A stretch of 6,917 bases of DNA, taken from contig JAHEFL010000085.1 of assembly GCA_024640205.1 (NCBI GenBank), positions 1 to 6,917 on the forward strand. Direction: 5' to 3'. Origin of the DNA: Flavobacteriales bacterium. GTDB lineage: Bacteria > Bacteroidota > Bacteroidia > Flavobacteriales_F > PHOS-HE28. The translations under genes and the position numbers were made by a program. Positions 1 through 6,917 of this stretch are shown one piece after another; position 1 is the stretch's first letter, and each line of letters begins with the position of its first letter. Under the pieces are notes generated by a model, which saw only the letters and a list, made by a program, of their open reading frames with translations, was not told the DNA's origin and made no database searches.

Positions 1-958
1 CTCCATCATTTGCTCCCAGGTATGAGTATAGGACCGCCAAGGTCATCACCACCGCGAGCACCAATACGGAATGGATCAACCAGCGTTCGATCTTCCACGC
101 CTTGTCACTCTTGTCGCTTAATTGCCGGAAGGGGTCGCCAGCGGTCTCCGCCAATCCACCACAACCACAAACCCAGGAGCAGTACCAGCGCTTCCCGTAG
201 AAGTACGTCAGCACCGGCGATATCAGGAAGATCATGGCCACGCCGAACAGGAGCATGAACGATCCGAAACCTCCAGCTTCGATCAGGCCTTTCACGTGCC
301 ACTCATCGAAGAAGTAGTAGTTGAGCGGCCACATGTTGGCGAAATTGTAGTAAGGTTCATTGAGCCTTTGGAGCAGTTCCGGGATCAGGAATGCGAAGCC
401 CAACTGGAAGAACATCACCGAGATGGTGCGGAACACCTGGTACTTATTGTGCCGGTATTTCAGAATGAATTTCAAACCCATCACGAGGATCGCAAGTGTG
501 TACAAGGTGCCGTAAACGAACCATTCAGAGGCGGCATTCCCGCTAAGAGCAATGCTGAGCGGATCGAACAAGGCCACCATGCCTCCATTGGTCGCACCAT
601 CCCGGCCGAGGCCTAGTAATTCGGGCTGGAAATAAAGGAGGACGTAAAAGCCCGTCAGGATCACACCGAGGACCCATGCCGATGCTCCGCGCGCCGTAAG
701 TCCATGATGCCAGACTCCATCATTCTTGATGCCCGCGGGTTCGTGGGCATAGGTGCGATGCATATGTAACGCGGCCCCCAAGATGACGGCCAACAGTGCA
801 CAGCCGAGGACCATTGCTGCCGGAACTCCGGGAATGAATGGACTTACGAACAGCGAGAGGATACCGACGGCCACCGCCGTCAACGCACCTTTCTGGACGG
901 CATCCAGAGTGCCGCTTCGCAGCTCGGAGATCGATAGACTATGGTCGGTCCGGCTCAT
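1..958 (-). CDS. Polytopic membrane Fe-S-type (polyferredoxin-like) protein, C-terminus beyond window
   Basis: An open frame of 319 codons runs from an ATG at 958 to the window edge without a stop, so the C-terminus is missing. The ATG overlaps the stop of the upstream flavoprotein gene (ATGA), which fixes the start. Hydrophobic, probably membrane-spanning stretches lie near residues 24-64 (perhaps two), 93-110, 146-166, 179-196, 229-253 and 294-315. After the fifth comes the sequence RWYCSWVCGCGGLAE (C260, C264, C266), which resembles the CxxxC motif following a helix in NapH/NosR/CcoG-type membrane Fe-S proteins but lacks their usual Cys-Pro. Known members of that broad group pass electrons through Fe-S clusters at the membrane. 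Classic ferredoxin motifs, if present, would lie in the missing part. Coupling to an NAD(P)H-type flavoprotein suggests the pair works as an electron-transfer unit. That role is inferred; the exact family is not certain. Confidence 0.82.
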   Translation of the reverse strand, partial: MSRTDHSLSISELRSGTLDAVQKGALTAVAVGILSLFVSPFIPGVPAAMVLGCALLAVILGAALHMHRTYAHEPAGIKNDGVWHHGLTARGASAWVLGVILTGFYVLLYFQPELLGLGRDGATNGGMVALFDPLSIALSGNAASEWFVYGTLYTLAILVMGLKFILKYRHNKYQVFRTISVMFFQLGFAFLIPELLQRLNEPYYNFANMWPLNYYFFDEWHVKGLIEAGGFGSFMLLFGVAMIFLISPVLTYFYGKRWYCSWVCGCGGLAETAGDPFRQLSDKSDKAWKIERWLIHSVLVLAVVMTLAVLYSYLGANDG

Positions 959-2256
959 ACGCTTACCCGGTTCCGTTCCTTGAACGAGTCTTGCACCATC
1001 CGAATGGTCGAGCCATGGAATTCGGGATCAAAGCTTGCTTCGCGGAAATTACTCATGAGGTGGTCCACCGTTGTACCCTGCGTGATATAACGATCCAATA
1101 CCTCATGGCGCAGCCGTATCCCGAATGCATGGACTCCTTTCACTATGCGATCTTCAGTGTCCCATACCACCCGCAATGCTTGCCTGCCGCTCCGATGCTC
1201 CCAGTAGTGATCCGATTCTCCATCACGCAATTCCTTCCTCACCCATCCGTACGTCTGGTATTCAATGTCGAAGAATTTCGAACTGTTGAACCAGACACCC
1301 GGACGGTATGATGTCCGTTGTCCGGTGAGGGAAAGGGCAACGGTCTCTCCCATCATCCGACCGGTATACCAGACCTGTTCGATCGGTCCGCGCTCAGGGT
1401 CGGGGTTTTGATGGAACTCGGCGCAATCGCCGATCGCGTAAACGTCGGTGGCGCTCGTTTCCAGGAATTCGTTCACCAGCACACCACGTCCGGTGGCGAT
1501 CCCGGTCGTTCCAGCCAGCCATGCGATGTTCGGGCTGACACCGGTGGTCAGGCCAACGAATTCACACGCGATCTCTTCACCCGAATTCGTTCGCACACCG
1601 CATACTCTGCCATCCGCACCTGGCACTATCCCTGCCAGTTCCGTTCCGCACCTCAGATCCACGCGGTGCTCCATGATATGCCTGCCGATCAATTCGGCTT
1701 CCTGTAAGGGCAAGTGATCGCCCCAGAAAGATCGATCCCTCACCAGGAAGGTGACCGGGATCTTCCGCGAACAGAGCATTTCCACCATCTCCATGCCGAT
1801 CAATCCACCACCAACGACCACCGCACGCTTTACTCTCCGGGTGTCCCGTTCCATCGCCTCCAGATCCTGCATGCTATACAATCCCTGCACGCCGGGAAGA
1901 TCCTGGCCTGGCCATCCGAATTTGTTCGGCACGGAGCCGGTCGCGATCACCAACTTGTCATATTCCAGCACGGTTCCATCAGCCAGCAGGACCTGTTTGT
2001 TCCCCGATCGCACCTCATTCACCCACGCTTGTACCAGTTCGATCCGGTTCTTGGGCCAAAAGTCGTCCGCGTAAGGTTTGATGTCGGCTTTTCGCATATG
2101 CCCCATGTACACGTACATGAGCGCTGTCCGGCTGAAAAAATGAGAACTCTCACCGCTGATCACCGTGATCCTCGCTAAGCTTCTCTTGCGCACGTGTCGT
2201 GCAGCCGTGATCCCGCTGATGCCATTGCCTATGATGATGATGTGCATCCCGCTCAT
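955..2256 (-). CDS. NAD(P)/FAD-dependent oxidoreductase (Pyr_redox_2 type)
   Basis: This 433-residue flavoprotein has the two-dinucleotide-domain layout of rubredoxin reductase/NirB-like enzymes. The FAD-binding GNGISG is at residues 10-15, the VIATGS strand at 103-108, the NAD(P)-binding GGGLIG at 149-154 and the second FAD motif VYAIGDCAEF at 272-281. No redox-active CxxC follows the first FAD motif, so it is not a thioredoxin- or lipoamide-type disulfide reductase. About 110 residues beyond the second FAD motif form a C-terminal domain that I cannot name. Such enzymes take hydride from NAD(P)H and pass electrons to a protein partner or a small acceptor. Its start overlaps the DUF547 stop and its stop overlaps the start of the membrane Fe-S protein, both as ATGA, so that membrane protein is the obvious candidate partner. 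A second in-frame ATG at 2247 is possible but would lose the coupling. The substrate is unknown. Confidence 0.9.
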   Translation of the reverse strand: MSGMHIIIIGNGISGITAARHVRKRSLARITVISGESSHFFSRTALMYVYMGHMRKADIKPYADDFWPKNRIELVQAWVNEVRSGNKQVLLADGTVLEYDKLVIATGSVPNKFGWPGQDLPGVQGLYSMQDLEAMERDTRRVKRAVVVGGGLIGMEMVEMLCSRKIPVTFLVRDRSFWGDHLPLQEAELIGRHIMEHRVDLRCGTELAGIVPGADGRVCGVRTNSGEEIACEFVGLTTGVSPNIAWLAGTTGIATGRGVLVNEFLETSATDVYAIGDCAEFHQNPDPERGPIEQVWYTGRMMGETVALSLTGQRTSYRPGVWFNSSKFFDIEYQTYGWVRKELRDGESDHYWEHRSGRQALRVVWDTEDRIVKGVHAFGIRLRHEVLDRYITQGTTVDHLMSNFREASFDPEFHGSTIRMVQDSFKERNRVSV

Positions 2257-3014
2257 TGCGCGTTCAAACGCCAGTCGTAGTCCAGGAATTCGACTTTGGC
2301 GCCTTTCATTATCGGGTCGATCGCATAACGGTTGATGTGAGCTATCAAACTGCCTTCCTGTGTGAAGTCGCTCGCGAACCAGTCGAAGATCCGGCTTAAC
2401 TGCAAGCGCTCCGGAGCAAGCTTGTTGCGCAGCGGATCATTTATGAACCGCCGTGCTGCATCATCCAACTGATCATCCAACTTGATGGCCGTGTAGGCCT
2501 GGTTCCACAATTGTGGACAGGAGAAGGAGGCGCACACGATCGCGTAATGGATGCGGGGATCATTCAGGTTCTTGCGCAGTTCGACATGTTCCACATGGTC
2601 CAGGTTCATCTTTCGGCCGCCGATCGAAAAGAACTCCAGTTTCCACGGCGAATTGATGTCCTTGATGCTTGTCACACCCGGATGGTCCAGGATAAGTCGT
2701 ACGGTGAAAGCGTTGTATGCGTTGATCCAGAACGCCTTGCGTTCGTTGTCGCTCCAGCTTTCCGAGGGAGTGGCCTTGCTCAGTTGGTCCAGGTAGTGCG
2801 TCAAACGAGCGTCGTTGCCGATGCTGGCGTAATCCACTTCTCCTTTGTCATTGACATAGGCATGGAGGAGTTGATCCCACTCCCTGTGATCGAATGTTAT
2901 CGTTTCAACGACGGTAACAAGGGGTGCGGCATCGAGATCACGCTTCACGTCGATGGCGCTCGGGTCGGAACATGCTGAAAGTAGGATGAAGACGTTAGCG
3001 AATGATGTGATCAT
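2253..3014 (-). CDS. DUF547 domain lipoprotein
   Basis: A 253-residue protein of the DUF547 family, whose biochemical function is not known. Conserved blocks seen are WINAYNAFTVRLIL (residues 97-110), RKMNLDHVEH (134-143), HYAIVCASFSCPQL (156-169, with C161 and C166) and LSRIFDWFASDF (206-217). The chosen ATG gives a short signal with a lipobox, LLSAC, so C15 would be lipidated and the protein would sit in the inner or outer membrane facing the periplasm. The start is uncertain: this signal has no basic residue, and the frame stays open upstream. A TTG at 3047 would add an Arg-containing n-region, an ATG lies at 3170, and a TTG at 3215 overlaps the glycosyltransferase stop. The stop overlaps the flavoprotein start (ATGA), which places it in the same operon. 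Its place between the glycosyltransferase and the redox genes suggests a role in the same pathway, but that is inference. Confidence 0.85.
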   Translation of the reverse strand: MITSFANVFILLSACSDPSAIDVKRDLDAAPLVTVVETITFDHREWDQLLHAYVNDKGEVDYASIGNDARLTHYLDQLSKATPSESWSDNERKAFWINAYNAFTVRLILDHPGVTSIKDINSPWKLEFFSIGGRKMNLDHVEHVELRKNLNDPRIHYAIVCASFSCPQLWNQAYTAIKLDDQLDDAARRFINDPLRNKLAPERLQLSRIFDWFASDFTQEGSLIAHINRYAIDPIMKGAKVEFLDYDWRLNAQ

Positions 3015-3211
3015 TATTGGTTGAGGATAAGGCCTTGATCGGTCCAAATTAGATGCGGCAGGTATGGGAGGCGTGGGATCGCTGTCATCATTTGCTTTGC
3101 GCAGATCGATACATGGGGTACCGTGCGTTTCGTTCGATGTTCCCACTTTATTGCTCGCGATGCGCAACATGAAGCTCGTATTACCTTGTTCTGATTTGCA
3201 GTGTCCGTTCT
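3015..3211 (-). other. Only sizeable gap inside the operon (about 200 bases)
   Basis: This stretch lies between the glycosyltransferase stop and the preferred DUF547 start. It holds no separate gene on either strand that I can support. The DUF547 frame runs through it with no stop, but the encoded residues are polar, Pro-rich near the end and look like no domain. On the minus strand a TAATTTG sequence at about 3045-3051 is one base short of the Bacteroidota -7 consensus TAnnTTTG and has no clear -33 partner, so an internal promoter is possible but weak. Confidence 0.4.
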
Positions 3212-3805
3212 TCAAGGCAGGGTGATATCGGCGAGGTCGGCCTCGGTGTCCACATCGATCAATTCAGGCAGCAAAGCGAACGATAGGCCCAAGGATCGCA
3301 GATCCGTCACGGTGTCGCGTGCCACTGTTCCAGTGCTCCACATTTTGTTCCTGAATACTTCCGGGATCATCCTGCGCATGGCCAGAAGGTAGTAGCCACC
3401 ATCCCGGGATGGTCCCAGGGACACATCGTGGTCGGTCAATGCTTCGAAGGCGTTCCCTATGATCTCCGCATTTACTCCGGGGCAATCGGTCCCTATGATC
3501 AATACTTCTGCATGTCCCGCCTTGAAGGCTTGTTCAAAGGCATGTGCCATGCGCTCACCGAGGTCCCCTTCGCATTGTTGCTCAGCATGGAAACCATGCG
3601 GGATCCACGCGGATCGCTCCGGAAGAGTGCCTTCATACCAGATGGCGCATGGAAGACCGGTCCTTTGGACCTCCTCCATCGTATGCTTGAGCAAGCGTTC
3701 GTAGATATCCAGTGCTCGCGCATCGCCGACCGTAGCGGCCAAACGAGTTTTGACCCGCCCCGGTTCCGGAACACGCAAAAAGGCGATGATGAGTCGATCC
3801 CTCAT
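3212..3805 (-). CDS. TIGR04282-family arsenosugar-associated glycosyltransferase
   Basis: A 197-residue soluble protein with the GT-A/CofC-like nucleotidyl-sugar fold. Motifs in order are PEPGRVKTRLA (13-23), GDLGERMAHAF (80-90), the metal/nucleotide region IGTDCPG (104-110), GPSRDGGYYLL (131-141) and DVDTEADL (184-191). This combination is typical of the family first named for its association with radical SAM/Cys-rich proteins and later assigned to arsenosugar biosynthesis; its exact donor and acceptor are not established. The ATG at 3805 overlaps the ArsS stop (ATGA) and directly precedes the conserved RLIIAFLRVPEPG strand. An upstream in-frame start at 3856 would add 17 residues lying wholly inside arsS and is unlikely. 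Length fits the family. It has no membrane segment, so it should be cytoplasmic. Confidence 0.9.
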   Translation of the reverse strand: MRDRLIIAFLRVPEPGRVKTRLAATVGDARALDIYERLLKHTMEEVQRTGLPCAIWYEGTLPERSAWIPHGFHAEQQCEGDLGERMAHAFEQAFKAGHAEVLIIGTDCPGVNAEIIGNAFEALTDHDVSLGPSRDGGYYLLAMRRMIPEVFRNKMWSTGTVARDTVTDLRSLGLSFALLPELIDVDTEADLADITLP

Positions 3806-4842
3806 GTTGTGGCGCCACCGCAACTGCTTCCCGCCCCGGCAGTGCATCCATAACAATGGCGCCCCGTCACGATGTTCCGTCCGATCACGCTGGCATTGGG
3901 CAGGTCGGCGATATGTCGCGGCATTCCAGCGGAAAGCGGCATCTCCAGCATTTGATTGAAGTCGCAGTCGTACAGCATACCGTCATGGCCGACGGAGACC
4001 ATCGTTCGACACATCAAGCCTTCCACGGTCACTGGGTTGAAGGCATTGACTAGCTTTTCCATATATTCCTCGTAGTTGCCGCTTTTCTGCAGCTGTTCAA
4101 GGAATCGACTGATCGGGAGATTCGTGATGGCGAACAGAGCGTCGAAGCTTATCCCGTGGTCTTTGAGCAGGGCTTTCTTGAACTGCTGCTCAAGGTCGGA
4201 TTGTGATCCAGGAAGGAACGCCCCTGCCGGATTGTATACCATGTTGAGCACCTTGTCGCTGTCGCCCGTTCCATAGCCAACCGCATTGAGCAAGCGGAGC
4301 GCTTCGATGGATCGTTCGAATACACCATCCCCGCGTTGTCGATCGGTACGGCCCGCAGTATAAAAGGGGAGGGAACAGACCACTTCCACTCCCTGTGAAC
4401 GGTAGAATTCCGGAAGGTCACGGTATTTCTTGTTCGATACTATGATCGTGAGATTGCACCGAACAATGATCCGTGCGCCACGCTTGCGCACTTCCGCCAC
4501 GAACCAGCGAAAATCGGGATGCATTTCCGGCGCACCACCTGTGATGTCGACAATGCCGATCTGATGTGCATCGATCGCCTGCAAGCAAGCTTCCATCGTT
4601 GGGCGGTCCATACGCTCCTTTCTGTCCGGACCTGCATCCACATGGCAATGAACGCAGGTCTGGTTACACATCTTTCCGATGTTCACCTGCAGCGTTCCCA
4701 AAGCCGTGCTCCGCAACGTCCTTATGCCATGACGCTCCAGTGTCTCCCGGAAACCGGGAAGGTCGTGAACGGGATCTTCCAGTAGCTGCACTTGCCGCGC
4801 CGCAGCGCTCAAGGGGTGACGCTTAGCTGCAAGGCTCTTCAT
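3802..4842 (-). CDS. arsS: Arsenosugar biosynthesis radical SAM protein ArsS
   Basis: A 346-residue radical SAM enzyme. The [4Fe-4S]/SAM motif CNQTCVHC gives C59, C63 and C66, followed by TGGAPEMHPD (101-110) as the SAM-binding turn. The C-terminal region has the Cys-rich DUF3641-type layout: LMCRTMVSVGHDGMLYDCDF (277-296, C278 and C293), then HCYGCTAGAGSSCGG at 329-343 (C330, C333, C341). In studied cyanobacterial systems ArsM makes dimethylated arsenic and ArsS transfers the 5'-deoxyadenosyl group of SAM to it, giving the nucleoside precursor of arsenosugars. Some relatives are selenoproteins; here the positions are Cys and no in-frame TGA interrupts the gene. The ATG at 4842 overlaps the stop of the AhpD-like gene (ATGA). 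A longer frame back to 4956 lies inside that gene and is rejected. The enzyme should act in the cytoplasm. Confidence 0.94.
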   Translation of the reverse strand: MKSLAAKRHPLSAAARQVQLLEDPVHDLPGFRETLERHGIRTLRSTALGTLQVNIGKMCNQTCVHCHVDAGPDRKERMDRPTMEACLQAIDAHQIGIVDITGGAPEMHPDFRWFVAEVRKRGARIIVRCNLTIIVSNKKYRDLPEFYRSQGVEVVCSLPFYTAGRTDRQRGDGVFERSIEALRLLNAVGYGTGDSDKVLNMVYNPAGAFLPGSQSDLEQQFKKALLKDHGISFDALFAITNLPISRFLEQLQKSGNYEEYMEKLVNAFNPVTVEGLMCRTMVSVGHDGMLYDCDFNQMLEMPLSAGMPRHIADLPNASVIGRNIVTGRHCYGCTAGAGSSCGGATT

Positions 4843-5177
4843 CCGTGCGTAAGGGCCTTCACCTTGTTCATCATTTGAACACTGTGTACCAGCGAGGCTC
4901 CACTGCGGATCGCTGCCGCTACGTGCACCGCCTCCATCATTTGTTCCTCGCTGCAACCCTTTTCCAAGGTGTCCACCGTGTATGCATCAATGCAATATGG
5001 GCATTGTACCGTGTGCGATACGGCCAGTGCGATCAGGGCTTTTTCGCGCGCCGTGAGCGCTCCTTCCTTGAACACATCGTTGTAATAGCTGAAGTATTTG
5101 TCCCCGAGTTCCTTCTGGTACTCGGTGATCTTGCCGAATTTTTTGAGATCGGCCGGGTCGTAGTAATTGTTCTCCAT
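4839..5177 (-). CDS. Arsenosugar biosynthesis-associated peroxidase-like (AhpD/CMD family) protein
   Basis: A 112-residue member of the carboxymuconolactone decarboxylase/AhpD-like family. The helix pair with LTAREKALIALAVSHTVQ (41-58) leads into the CxxC motif CPYCIDAYT (C59, C62), and a second conserved region MEAVHVAAAIRSGASLVHSV follows at 81-100. The family includes small disulfide peroxidase components. Here the His that normally follows the second Cys by four residues in AhpD (CxxCxxxH) is Tyr66, so peroxidase activity cannot be assumed. This subfamily is known as a steady neighbour of the ArsS-type radical SAM protein, and here its stop overlaps the arsS start. ATG at 5177 (MENNYYDP) is preferred over a TTG at 5189, which adds only four residues. 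It is the first gene of the operon and carries no signal peptide, so it is probably cytoplasmic. A thiol-redox role towards an arsenic intermediate is possible but unproven. Confidence 0.9.
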   Translation of the reverse strand: MENNYYDPADLKKFGKITEYQKELGDKYFSYYNDVFKEGALTAREKALIALAVSHTVQCPYCIDAYTVDTLEKGCSEEQMMEAVHVAAAIRSGASLVHSVQMMNKVKALTHG

Positions 5178-5322
5178 GAATACGGGCAAGGTAGGACGGC
5201 GATTGACAAGGTCGGAACATGGATCCGTTCCTGACCCATCCTGAACAAGAATGACCCTGCTGCGTGGATGAACGATCTTTGCACCGTCAGGTCAGGTGCT
5301 TCAAAGCGACCCACAGGACGTG
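5178..5322. promoter_or_regulatory. Divergent intergenic region between the arsenosugar operon and the T9SS-protein gene
   Basis: These 145 bases must hold the promoters of the minus-strand operon and of the plus-strand secreted protein, unless transcripts enter from outside. No full -33/-7 pair is clear on either strand. On the plus strand GATCTTTG (5274-5281) is one base off TAnnTTTG. Just after it, GCACC (5281-5285) and GGTGC (5295-5299) form an inverted repeat around a direct GTCAG GTCAG repeat, which could be an operator. The assignment is by position, with the motifs as weak support. Confidence 0.4.
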
Positions 5323-5916
5323 ATGCGTAGTTCTTCACTGATACCGCTTTTATTCCCTTTTGTGGCGTTCGCACAAGAGGAGCATCCTTACATCATGCAC
5401 TTCGATCTTACTGTTCTGGACGGTAGTATCCTGGTCGCGTGGACAATGCAAGGCGGGAGTACGTGCAATGGCCTGGATGTGGAGCGCTCTCGCGATGGCG
5501 GGATATTCGAACGGGTGCATCGGATCGAAGGCATTTGCGGAGATCCGACCATCGCGGTCCCGTTCTCATGGATCGATGATGCACCGCCGGAGTTCAGCGT
5601 GGTCCACTACCGGATCCAGCTTGGATCCGAGGGATACAGTTCCGTCCAAGCCGTGGAATTCAGCCAACTCAAGCAAAGCGATCATCGGTTCTACCCTTCG
5701 CCAATGCGGAGCGAGGCTCGTTTGTTGTTGAACGTGCGGTCCGGTGCTTGGGTGGATCTCCGGATCATGGATGCTTCAGGTCGAACGGTTGTTGAGCGGT
5801 CCGGGAACCTGGGCGGTGATATTCGATTATCACTTCCCTGGCTGAATGCCGGTACTTACGGTTTTCTTGCCGTGAGCGAAGGACGCCGATATGTCGGTCG
5901 CTTCGTCAAGGATTGA
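5323..5916 (+). CDS. Small secreted protein with T9SS type A C-terminal sorting domain
   Basis: A 197-residue exported protein. Residues 1-17 form a signal peptide (MRSSS, then a hydrophobic run ending VAFA before QEEH). The middle, about 28-113, has the pattern of a fibronectin-III/Ig-like domain common in Bacteroidota surface proteins (LDVERSRDGGIFERVHRI, later a WIDDAPPEFSVVHYRIQL stretch); C48 and C72 might form a disulfide. The last ~75 residues fit a T9SS type A sorting domain: FYPSPMRSEARLLLNV (123-138), a DASGRTVV turn (150-157), LPWLNAGTYGFLAV (171-184) and the terminal GRFVKD. Such proteins cross the outer membrane by the type IX system and are released or anchored. The ATG at 5323 is chosen because it begins the signal peptide; an upstream GTG at 5296 would add nine polar residues. 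No enzyme motif is visible and no specific function is proposed. Confidence 0.82.
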   Translation: MRSSSLIPLLFPFVAFAQEEHPYIMHFDLTVLDGSILVAWTMQGGSTCNGLDVERSRDGGIFERVHRIEGICGDPTIAVPFSWIDDAPPEFSVVHYRIQLGSEGYSSVQAVEFSQLKQSDHRFYPSPMRSEARLLLNVRSGAWVDLRIMDASGRTVVERSGNLGGDIRLSLPWLNAGTYGFLAVSEGRRYVGRFVKD

Positions 5917-6007: not shown

Positions 6008-6400
6008 ATGAGAACCATCATCACACTACTCGGCCTTCTGGCGATCATGGCCACGGCCCAAGCACAATCCGAGGTAGGCACTACAACAAAGAAGAAGGCC
6101 AAGGCATCCACGACCGCGCCAGCTGCTGAAGTTGCGACCGAGGCTGCGCCCAAGGCAGGTTGCTGCGCACACAAGAGTACCGGTAAGGCAGAGGCCACTT
6201 CAGAAGGTGCACATGCGGAAGAAGGCGCTCACAAAGCAGGTGGTTGCTGTGCAGGCAAGTCCGAAGCTGCGAAGGCATCCTGCCATGACAAGGCTGAAGG
6301 ACACGCTCACGATCACGGTCATGAGCATGGTGAGGCCGAAGGGGCTGCGGCTCCTGTTCCCAGCGCCACACCGATGACCGAAGAGAAGCCGAACGAATGA
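6008..6400 (+). CDS. Exported Cys/His-rich low-complexity protein, possible metal/metalloid binder
   Basis: A 130-residue protein with no recognised family. Residues 1-19 form a signal peptide ending ATAQA before QSEV, so it is exported, probably to the periplasm. The rest is Ala/Lys/Glu-rich and likely disordered. It holds two vicinal cysteine pairs in similar settings, KAGCCAHKS (C52, C53) and KAGGCCAGKS (C80, C81), then SCHDK (C92), then the His cluster HAHDHGHEHGE (99-109). In all there are five Cys and nine His, suited to binding soft or transition metals such as Cu, Zn, Ni or As(III); this is inferred from composition only. The ATG at 6008 is preferred because it directly begins the signal peptide and follows an A-rich leader; an in-frame ATG at 5969 would add 13 residues and overlap the candidate -7 box. 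It follows the T9SS gene by 91 bases and ends before a hairpin. Confidence 0.78.
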   Translation: MRTIITLLGLLAIMATAQAQSEVGTTTKKKAKASTTAPAAEVATEAAPKAGCCAHKSTGKAEATSEGAHAEEGAHKAGGCCAGKSEAAKASCHDKAEGHAHDHGHEHGEAEGAAAPVPSATPMTEEKPNE

Positions 6401-6503: not shown

Positions 6504-6917
6504 TCATTGCTTCAGAACATGTTTACCATCCGCAAGACTGTCCACAAGATCCTGGATGCTCGTTGTTCCGAGGAGTCGCCTTAAACGCTCTCGTACCTCA
6601 AGAAAATCATCGTGCATGGGACAGGGCCGCTCCGAGTTACATTCGGGTAATCCCAACGCACAGCGGGTGTATACCTCATCGCCATCGATCGTGTCCACGA
6701 TGTCCTGCAACTTGGTACCCTTGGCAAGGGCTTCGGTGATCTGGAAGCCGCCGCCATGCCCTTTCATGGAAATGACGATGCCCGCATGTACCAATTTCTG
6801 GAGGATCTTCGCCGTAAAGGCCTCCGGAGAATCCGTACGTGCTGCGATCTCCGTAACTCCGATCCGTTCGTCCCCGTCACGGCACGATGCTATGCAAAGC
6901 GTGGCACGAATCGCATA
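6504..6917 (-). CDS. Rrf2-family transcriptional regulator with three conserved Cys, N-terminus beyond window
   Basis: The frame is open from the window edge (137 codons in view) and ends at a TGA at 6504-6506. The visible part starts YAIRATLCIAS, which matches Rrf2 proteins from about residue 8, so only the first few residues are missing. The winged-helix DNA-binding region follows: GVTEIAARTDSPEAFTAKIL as the recognition helix area and ISMKGHGGGFQI as the wing. Next comes CALGLPECNSERPCPMH, with Cys spaced x6 and x5, the layout that binds an Fe-S cluster in IscR/NsrR-type members. Such regulators sense iron-sulfur status, nitric oxide or redox stress. The targets are unknown; it converges on the Cys/His-rich gene and is not part of the arsenosugar operon. 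A TTG at 6794 is internal and not the start. Confidence 0.88.
   Translation of the reverse strand, partial: YAIRATLCIASCRDGDERIGVTEIAARTDSPEAFTAKILQKLVHAGIVISMKGHGGGFQITEALAKGTKLQDIVDTIDGDEVYTRCALGLPECNSERPCPMHDDFLEVRERLRRLLGTTSIQDLVDSLADGKHVLKQ

Follow-up and report, generated by a model that had tools for sequence, protein, structure and literature searches.

Do the genes that follow an arsenosugar signature in a draft bacterial genome belong to the same pathway? The question is raised by a stretch of 6,917 nucleotides (hereafter the window) that makes up the entire contig JAHEFL010000085.1 (C351) of a Flavobacteriales bacterium (GTDB lineage PHOS-HE28; assembly GCA_024640205.1, 2.6 Mb, 556 contigs, 83% complete). 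Six minus-strand reading frames extend from position 5177 down to the contig's first base and encode, in order, an AhpD-like protein, ArsS, a TIGR04282 protein, a DUF547 lipoprotein, an FAD/NAD(P) oxidoreductase (the FAD protein below) and a membrane Fe-S protein. From the tight coupling of these genes, the original prediction had proposed an extended arsenosugar pathway, perhaps including membrane steps. We tentatively place the arsenosugar pair AhpD-ArsS at the head of an apparent nine-gene operon whose remaining module likely builds a lipid-linked glycan, to which the arsenosugar would be attached; as a whole, this proposal has in our judgement slightly less than an even chance of being right.

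The six-gene run and its apparent continuation

The first three genes matched the known arsenosugar signature, as had been predicted, and all scored over their curated cut-offs. The AhpD-like protein of arsenosugar loci (4839..5177) scored 183.8 bits against TIGR04169 (cut-off 120), the ArsS radical SAM protein (3802..4842) 445.8 bits against TIGR04167 (cut-off 300), and the CofC/glycosyltransferase-like protein (3212..3805) 208.1 bits against TIGR04282 (cut-off 134). ArsS contained the radical SAM domain and was the sole copy above the TIGR04167 cut-off in the window's genome. PMC12159101 cites work by others in which arsenic is adenosylated by a radical SAM enzyme in arsenosugar synthesis. 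The run thus shares three genes with the arsenosugar biosynthesis set (ArsS, TIGR04169, TIGR04282, TIGR04283 and ArsM NF038099), but here these are followed by the DUF547, FAD and Fe-S genes and apparently by three glycosyltransferase genes. The window contained neither an ArsM nor a PNP gene.

Inspection of frames and bases confirmed that four of the five junctions are exact ATGA overlaps, located at 4839-4842 (AhpD/ArsS), 3802-3805 (ArsS/TIGR04282), 2253-2256 (DUF547/FAD) and 955-958 (FAD/Fe-S). The fifth, between TIGR04282 and DUF547, is a 197-base gap (3015..3211) from the arsenic block to the module block, in which a promoter or terminator was sought and nothing convincing was found. Upstream, the DUF547 frame runs without a stop as far as a TTG at 3215, which overlaps the TIGR04282 stop. 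Its start was taken as the ATG at 3014, which opens a lipoprotein-type signal with the motif LLSAC.

The DUF547 protein (2253..3014) matched PF04784 with 100.1 bits (gathering cut-off 27) and gave a confident structure model, for which a comparison with solved structures returned no convincing match. The FAD protein (955..2256; Pyr_redox_2) was of ferredoxin-reductase type, and its nearest solved sequence relatives were ferredoxin-NAD reductases of the putidaredoxin reductase type (21 distinct sequences at E ≤ 1e-20). Unlike those systems, the run here has no soluble ferredoxin gene, and the membrane Fe-S protein is the likely partner. This polytopic protein (1..958; Fer4_5) is represented by its N-terminal 318 aa, as the gene is cut at base 1 because the window spans the whole contig.

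Searching the window's genome with a profile built from alignment A1 of the Fe-S family located the missing C-terminal half on contig C84 (L251 2559-3182). Across 95 relatives, a CxxxCxC motif, a CxxxCP motif and two ferredoxin-type cysteine sets were near-invariant; the piece in the window stops before the last three of these motifs, and those three are on C84. By eye, the last 11 bases of C84 equal the first 11 of the window, and the reading frame is unbroken across the join. Downstream on C84 lie gtA, which starts 4 bases past the Fe-S stop and runs into gtB, and then gtB and the start of mGT, joined by an ATGA overlap. Given the in-frame half and these three genes, the run is apparently AhpD-ArsS-TIGR04282-DUF547-FAD-FeS-gtA-gtB-mGT, nine genes in all. 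The presence of apparent glycosyltransferase genes in the same run fits the earlier guess of membrane steps. Relatives of gtA resembled AglJ and dolichyl-phosphate hexose transferases while scoring under the curated cut-off, those of gtB resembled processive GT2 synthases, and those of mGT resembled family GT87 enzymes. The families of the gtA and mGT relatives are shared with polyprenyl-phosphate sugar glycosylation, but here they apparently stand in one operon with ArsS.

The Fe-S protein shares with the NapH/NosR membrane ferredoxins the Fer4_5 domain, the cysteine motifs of the membrane part and, at the family level, two ferredoxin-type cysteine sets. It differs in having CxxxCxC where NapH/NosR have the first of their CxxxCP motifs, and in having a flavin reductase as its partner or fused to it. 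The window's piece scored 22.2 and 20.4 bits on NapH-type models (cut-offs 213.05 and 234), and a full-length relative scored 59.8 bits on a NapH-type model (213.05) and 20.4 on NosR (1000), so that these cut-offs were not reached. In two genomes of another class (G062 and G019), a single 826-aa protein fuses a flavin domain to the Fe-S membrane part, the flavin domain of G019 being typed as YpdA-like. More Fe-S matches fell within frames of ~780 to 910 aa and are candidate fusions by size. A separate kind of fusion was seen at L194 (6989-8272), where a TIGR04282-type domain sits behind a partial GT2 domain; copies of similar length at L193 and L188 are candidates for the same arrangement.

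Distribution of ArsS and the module

Presence was surveyed in 395 genomes sampled evenly from the phylum, of which 98 belong to the window's class. The curated cut-off was applied to ArsS and E-value limits to the FAD protein (E ≤ 1e-80), Fe-S protein (E ≤ 1e-30) and gtB (E ≤ 1e-90); these cut-offs, together with the limited number of candidates scored per genome, may hide some copies. Across the phylum, ArsS was found in 156 genomes, FAD in 71, Fe-S in 90 and gtB in 173, with ArsS and FAD together in 48, ArsS only in 108, FAD only in 23 and neither in 216. The association was strong in the window's own class, where 27 genomes had both, 2 ArsS only, 9 FAD only and 60 neither, placing FAD in 27/29 ArsS genomes vs. 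9/69 without ArsS. Counted by genus, the same class gave 20, 1, 4 and 28. When labels were shuffled within families (20,001 shuffles over the 98 class genomes and 44 other genomes of the window's genus), the 30 joint ArsS/FAD cases compared with 16.0 on average and 24 at most. Within the genus (45 genomes), ArsS passed its cut-off in 4, and FAD was present in the same 4 and in one 85%-complete genome. DUF547 at E < 1e-50 was confined to the 4 ArsS genomes, on a different contig from ArsS in two of them and ~20 kb away in a third; two more genus genomes had weaker matches (33% identity; a 30% fragment).

The other genes of the module followed the same pattern. In the class, gtB was present in 36/36 FAD genomes and in 2/62 others. 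Tests for DUF547 and TIGR04282 covered 80 of the class's 98 genomes: every genome with ArsS (29), every one with FAD only (9) and 42 of the 60 that have neither. In these groups, DUF547 (E ≤ 1e-36) was found in 26/29, 9/9 and 0/42, respectively, one of the 26 (G304) having only a 37%-identical copy, and TIGR04282 in 29/29, 9/9 and 1/42. Arsenosugar-type ArsM (NF038099) was over its cut-off in 21/29 ArsS genomes, 0/9 FAD-only genomes and 0/22 further own-class genomes. Taken together, these counts indicate that ArsS in this class is almost confined to genomes with the TIGR04282-DUF547-FAD-FeS-gtB module.

One explanation for the association is that the FAD/Fe-S pair is a dedicated electron supply for arsenic chemistry, either by reducing the [4Fe-4S] cluster of ArsS or by converting pentavalent methyl-arsenic to the trivalent state that ArsS is believed to act on. 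The ferredoxin-reductase type of the FAD protein and the radical SAM domain of ArsS suit such a role, as do four other-class loci (L163-L166) in which the pair is directly beside AhpD-ArsS and no gtB or mGT was found in the stretch read. This explanation is weakened by the nine FAD-only genomes, which keep the pair without ArsS or arsenosugar-type ArsM. Moreover, FAD tracks gtB in the class more closely than it tracks ArsS, and most ArsS genomes outside the class are without the Fe-S protein. We therefore regard a dedicated electron supply as unlikely, and prefer a glycan module that would receive the arsenosugar.

Gene neighbourhoods were read at 91 ArsS loci, comprising the window, 31 loci of its class or genus, and 59 of the 127 other-class ArsS genomes, picked for a wide spread of families. 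AhpD lay within 10 kb of ArsS at 80 loci, TIGR04282 at 52, TIGR04283 at 32 and DUF547 at 17; all counts near ArsS, here and below, are lower bounds because some loci end early. Among the 22 genomes whose listed matches place ArsS and FAD on the same contig, the two lay within 10 kb in 8 and within 25 kb in 15. Viewed from the FAD side (at least 590 relatives occur in named genomes, of which the best 80 were read, several loci ending at contig ends), neighbours included Fe-S at 74 loci, DUF547 of any type at 42, TIGR04282 at 28, ArsS at 14 and AhpD at 10.

Several arrangements in other classes united the same families. The order AhpD-ArsS-TIGR04282-FAD-FeS was found at L164 and L165, and with one extra frame at L202; AhpD-ArsS-FAD-FeS at L166; FAD-FeS-AhpD-ArsS-gtA at L163; and, with the fused protein, [FAD::FeS]-TIGR04282-DUF547-AhpD-ArsS-gtA at L193 and L194. 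Given these differing orders and the change of flavin domain, the families seem to have been joined more than once. Presence across genomes and operons shared with other classes show that the link is not restricted to close relatives. In Flavobacteriaceae, such as Gramella jeungdoensis (L067) and Christiangramia sabulilitoris (L100), a larger cluster (its families typed on relatives) contained rhodanese, PNP, ArsM, TIGR04283 and GH113 hydrolase genes in addition to FAD-FeS-gtA-gtB-mGT. Many other loci had FAD-FeS-gtA-gtB-mGT, with ArsS absent from the stretch read. Two of the nine ArsS-free genomes (L246, and L260 with one extra frame) had the order rhodanese, TIGR04282, fatty-acid-hydroxylase-like, DUF547, TIGR04283, an unassigned gene, FAD, FeS, gtA, gtB, mGT.

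A second explanation is that two independent traits merely neighbour one another, arsenosugar synthesis and a membrane glycan pathway sharing hosts and habitats and drifting together without a common product. This would account for the gap separating the two blocks in the window, for the 7 of the 22 one-contig genomes in which ArsS and FAD are >25 kb apart, and for the module standing alone in nine genomes. Without a functional link, however, it is difficult to account for the within-family shuffles, or for the meeting of these same families, in several gene orders, in different classes. TIGR04282, a family named for arsenosugars, was also present in all nine ArsS-free module genomes. Because of the shuffles and the repeated operons, we consider independence the less convincing account, although one that retains a fair minority of the probability.

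Several observations weigh against the preferred reading, in which the arsenosugar pair feeds a glycan module. The join of C351 and C84 is apparent from sequence and not from assembly, relying on 11 bases and an open frame, and a scripted test for an overlap of ≥20 bases between the two contigs found none. The tight coupling put forward in the original prediction is by itself weak evidence of a shared pathway: such overlaps are frequent, 22/87 same-strand neighbour pairs in the genus overlapping by 4 bases (eight loci, homologous operons included), which gives a binomial chance of ~0.016 for four of five junctions at the genus background. No arsenosugar-type ArsM match at E ≤ 1e-20 was found in the window's 83%-complete genome, and three ArsS-bearing genus relatives gave weak matches only. 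The nine FAD-only genomes, rated 100% complete, keep TIGR04282, DUF547, FAD, Fe-S and gtB in the absence of ArsS and arsenosugar-type ArsM. The proposed link of the last three genes to ArsS was supported, but their specificity for arsenosugars was not. Likewise, the survey of ArsS neighbourhoods found operons in other classes, but the pair was a minority, with Fe-S within 10 kb at 11/91 loci and FAD at 9/91 (gtA at 9).

Outside the class the association with ArsS was weak. ArsS and Fe-S occurred together in 33 genomes, ArsS only in 94, Fe-S only in 21 and neither in 149 (p 0.004); for ArsS and FAD the counts were 21, 106, 14 and 156 (odds ratio 2.2, p 0.03). At the cut-offs used, 94/127 outside-class ArsS genomes were therefore without Fe-S and 106/127 without FAD. 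Families f19 and f25 accounted for 77 of the 94. Among the loci read, TIGR04282 and TIGR04283 were both present in 8/8 (f19) and 7/13 (f25), and the FAD/Fe-S pair was found in none at these cut-offs. As many outside-class ArsS genomes are without the pair, it appears dispensable for some ArsS pathways.

Proposed pathway and origin of the arrangement

These data are best read as AhpD-ArsS plugging into a membrane glycan module that is older and has an electron path from NAD(P)H to the membrane. AhpD-ArsS would supply the arsenosugar. A phosphorylase, suggested by the PNP gene clustered in Flavobacteriaceae, would free the arseno-ribose. TIGR04282 and related transferases would then activate or transfer the arseno-ribose, while gtA, gtB and mGT would assemble a membrane glycan able to receive it. 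Electron transfer from NAD(P)H is proposed to run from the FAD protein to the Fe-S protein, with the flavoprotein passing electrons to the [4Fe-4S] centres of its membrane partner to drive a reduction there. An action on the outer side is proposed for the DUF547 lipoprotein. The product would presumably be an arsenolipid or arsenoglycan.

A broader version of this model is possible, although we consider it doubtful. In it, Bacteroidota would build arsenolipids or membrane-anchored arsenic glycans on an assembly line: ArsS would make the arsenosugar, and a glycan module that is older, free of arsenic and equipped with its own electron chain from NAD(P)H to the membrane would load it on a polyprenyl carrier. 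The arsenic part would be an optional plug-in that joined the module more than once, and 'arsenosugar glycosyltransferase' would be too narrow a name for TIGR04282.

A comparison with relatives of the same genus suggested how the window's arrangement may have arisen. The divergent plus-strand gene at 5296..5916 has homologues at L147, L148 and L150 that adjoin FAD or lie one gene off, and in these three relatives AhpD-ArsS-TIGR04282 is ~13-14 kb from FAD or on a different contig. In the window, the four genes from AhpD to DUF547 sit between this gene and FAD. Most simply, this would reflect a move of the arsenic block to the front of an FAD-FeS-glycosyltransferase operon, in which case the 5296..5916 gene may mark the insertion point.

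Significance and accompanying genes

The families involved are known singly, and the first three genes form a known signature. No description of the extended set was found in the open literature searched, a search that left subscription papers mostly outside. To our knowledge, the enzymes that turn arsenosugars into lipids, beyond methylation and ArsS, are largely unassigned. Several arsenic-cycling pathways are described as still unknown in a 2024 study of algal arsenolipids (PMC11009773). In culturable marine bacteria, named candidates for arsenolipid or glycan steps are provided by the genes that accompany ArsS through the class and in operons of other classes, in two genomes with a fused protein. 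In the window's class ArsS mostly occurs inside the module, and the module also occurs without ArsS. From this nesting it further seems that arsenic metabolism is over-called when TIGR04282 is named automatically as an arsenosugar gene; among the 80 genomes tested, 10/39 with TIGR04282 had no ArsS over the cut-off. Genes so named are listed as arsenic sequestration in a 2026 paper (PMC13077682).

A membrane fatty-acid-hydroxylase-like family (typed on L246 6227-7099) was observed near ArsS or FAD at 9 loci from several families, the others being L154, L157, L188, L203, L204, L215, L221 and L260. A di-iron hydroxylase would need electrons, and where this family occurs it could accept them from the FAD/Fe-S pair. 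At L163, two sensor-kinase/response-regulator pairs (956-3139 and 4441-7245) stand beside FAD-FeS-AhpD-ArsS-gtA. In family f19 (L167-L173, L242), a flavin amine-oxidase-type gene adjoins ArsS in 8/8 loci read, replacing AhpD.

Two further genes complete the window. The first (6008-6400, plus strand) encodes a small, possibly metal-binding protein that begins like a signal peptide and has a Cys-Cys/His-rich tail; it had 0 homologues in the 80 FAD loci, and its own copy alone was recovered among the further draft-genome loci compared. The second (6504-6917, minus strand), truncated at the contig end, encodes an Rrf2-family regulator with a cysteine-rich stretch, a relative of which was present in one other locus (L255, 35% identity).

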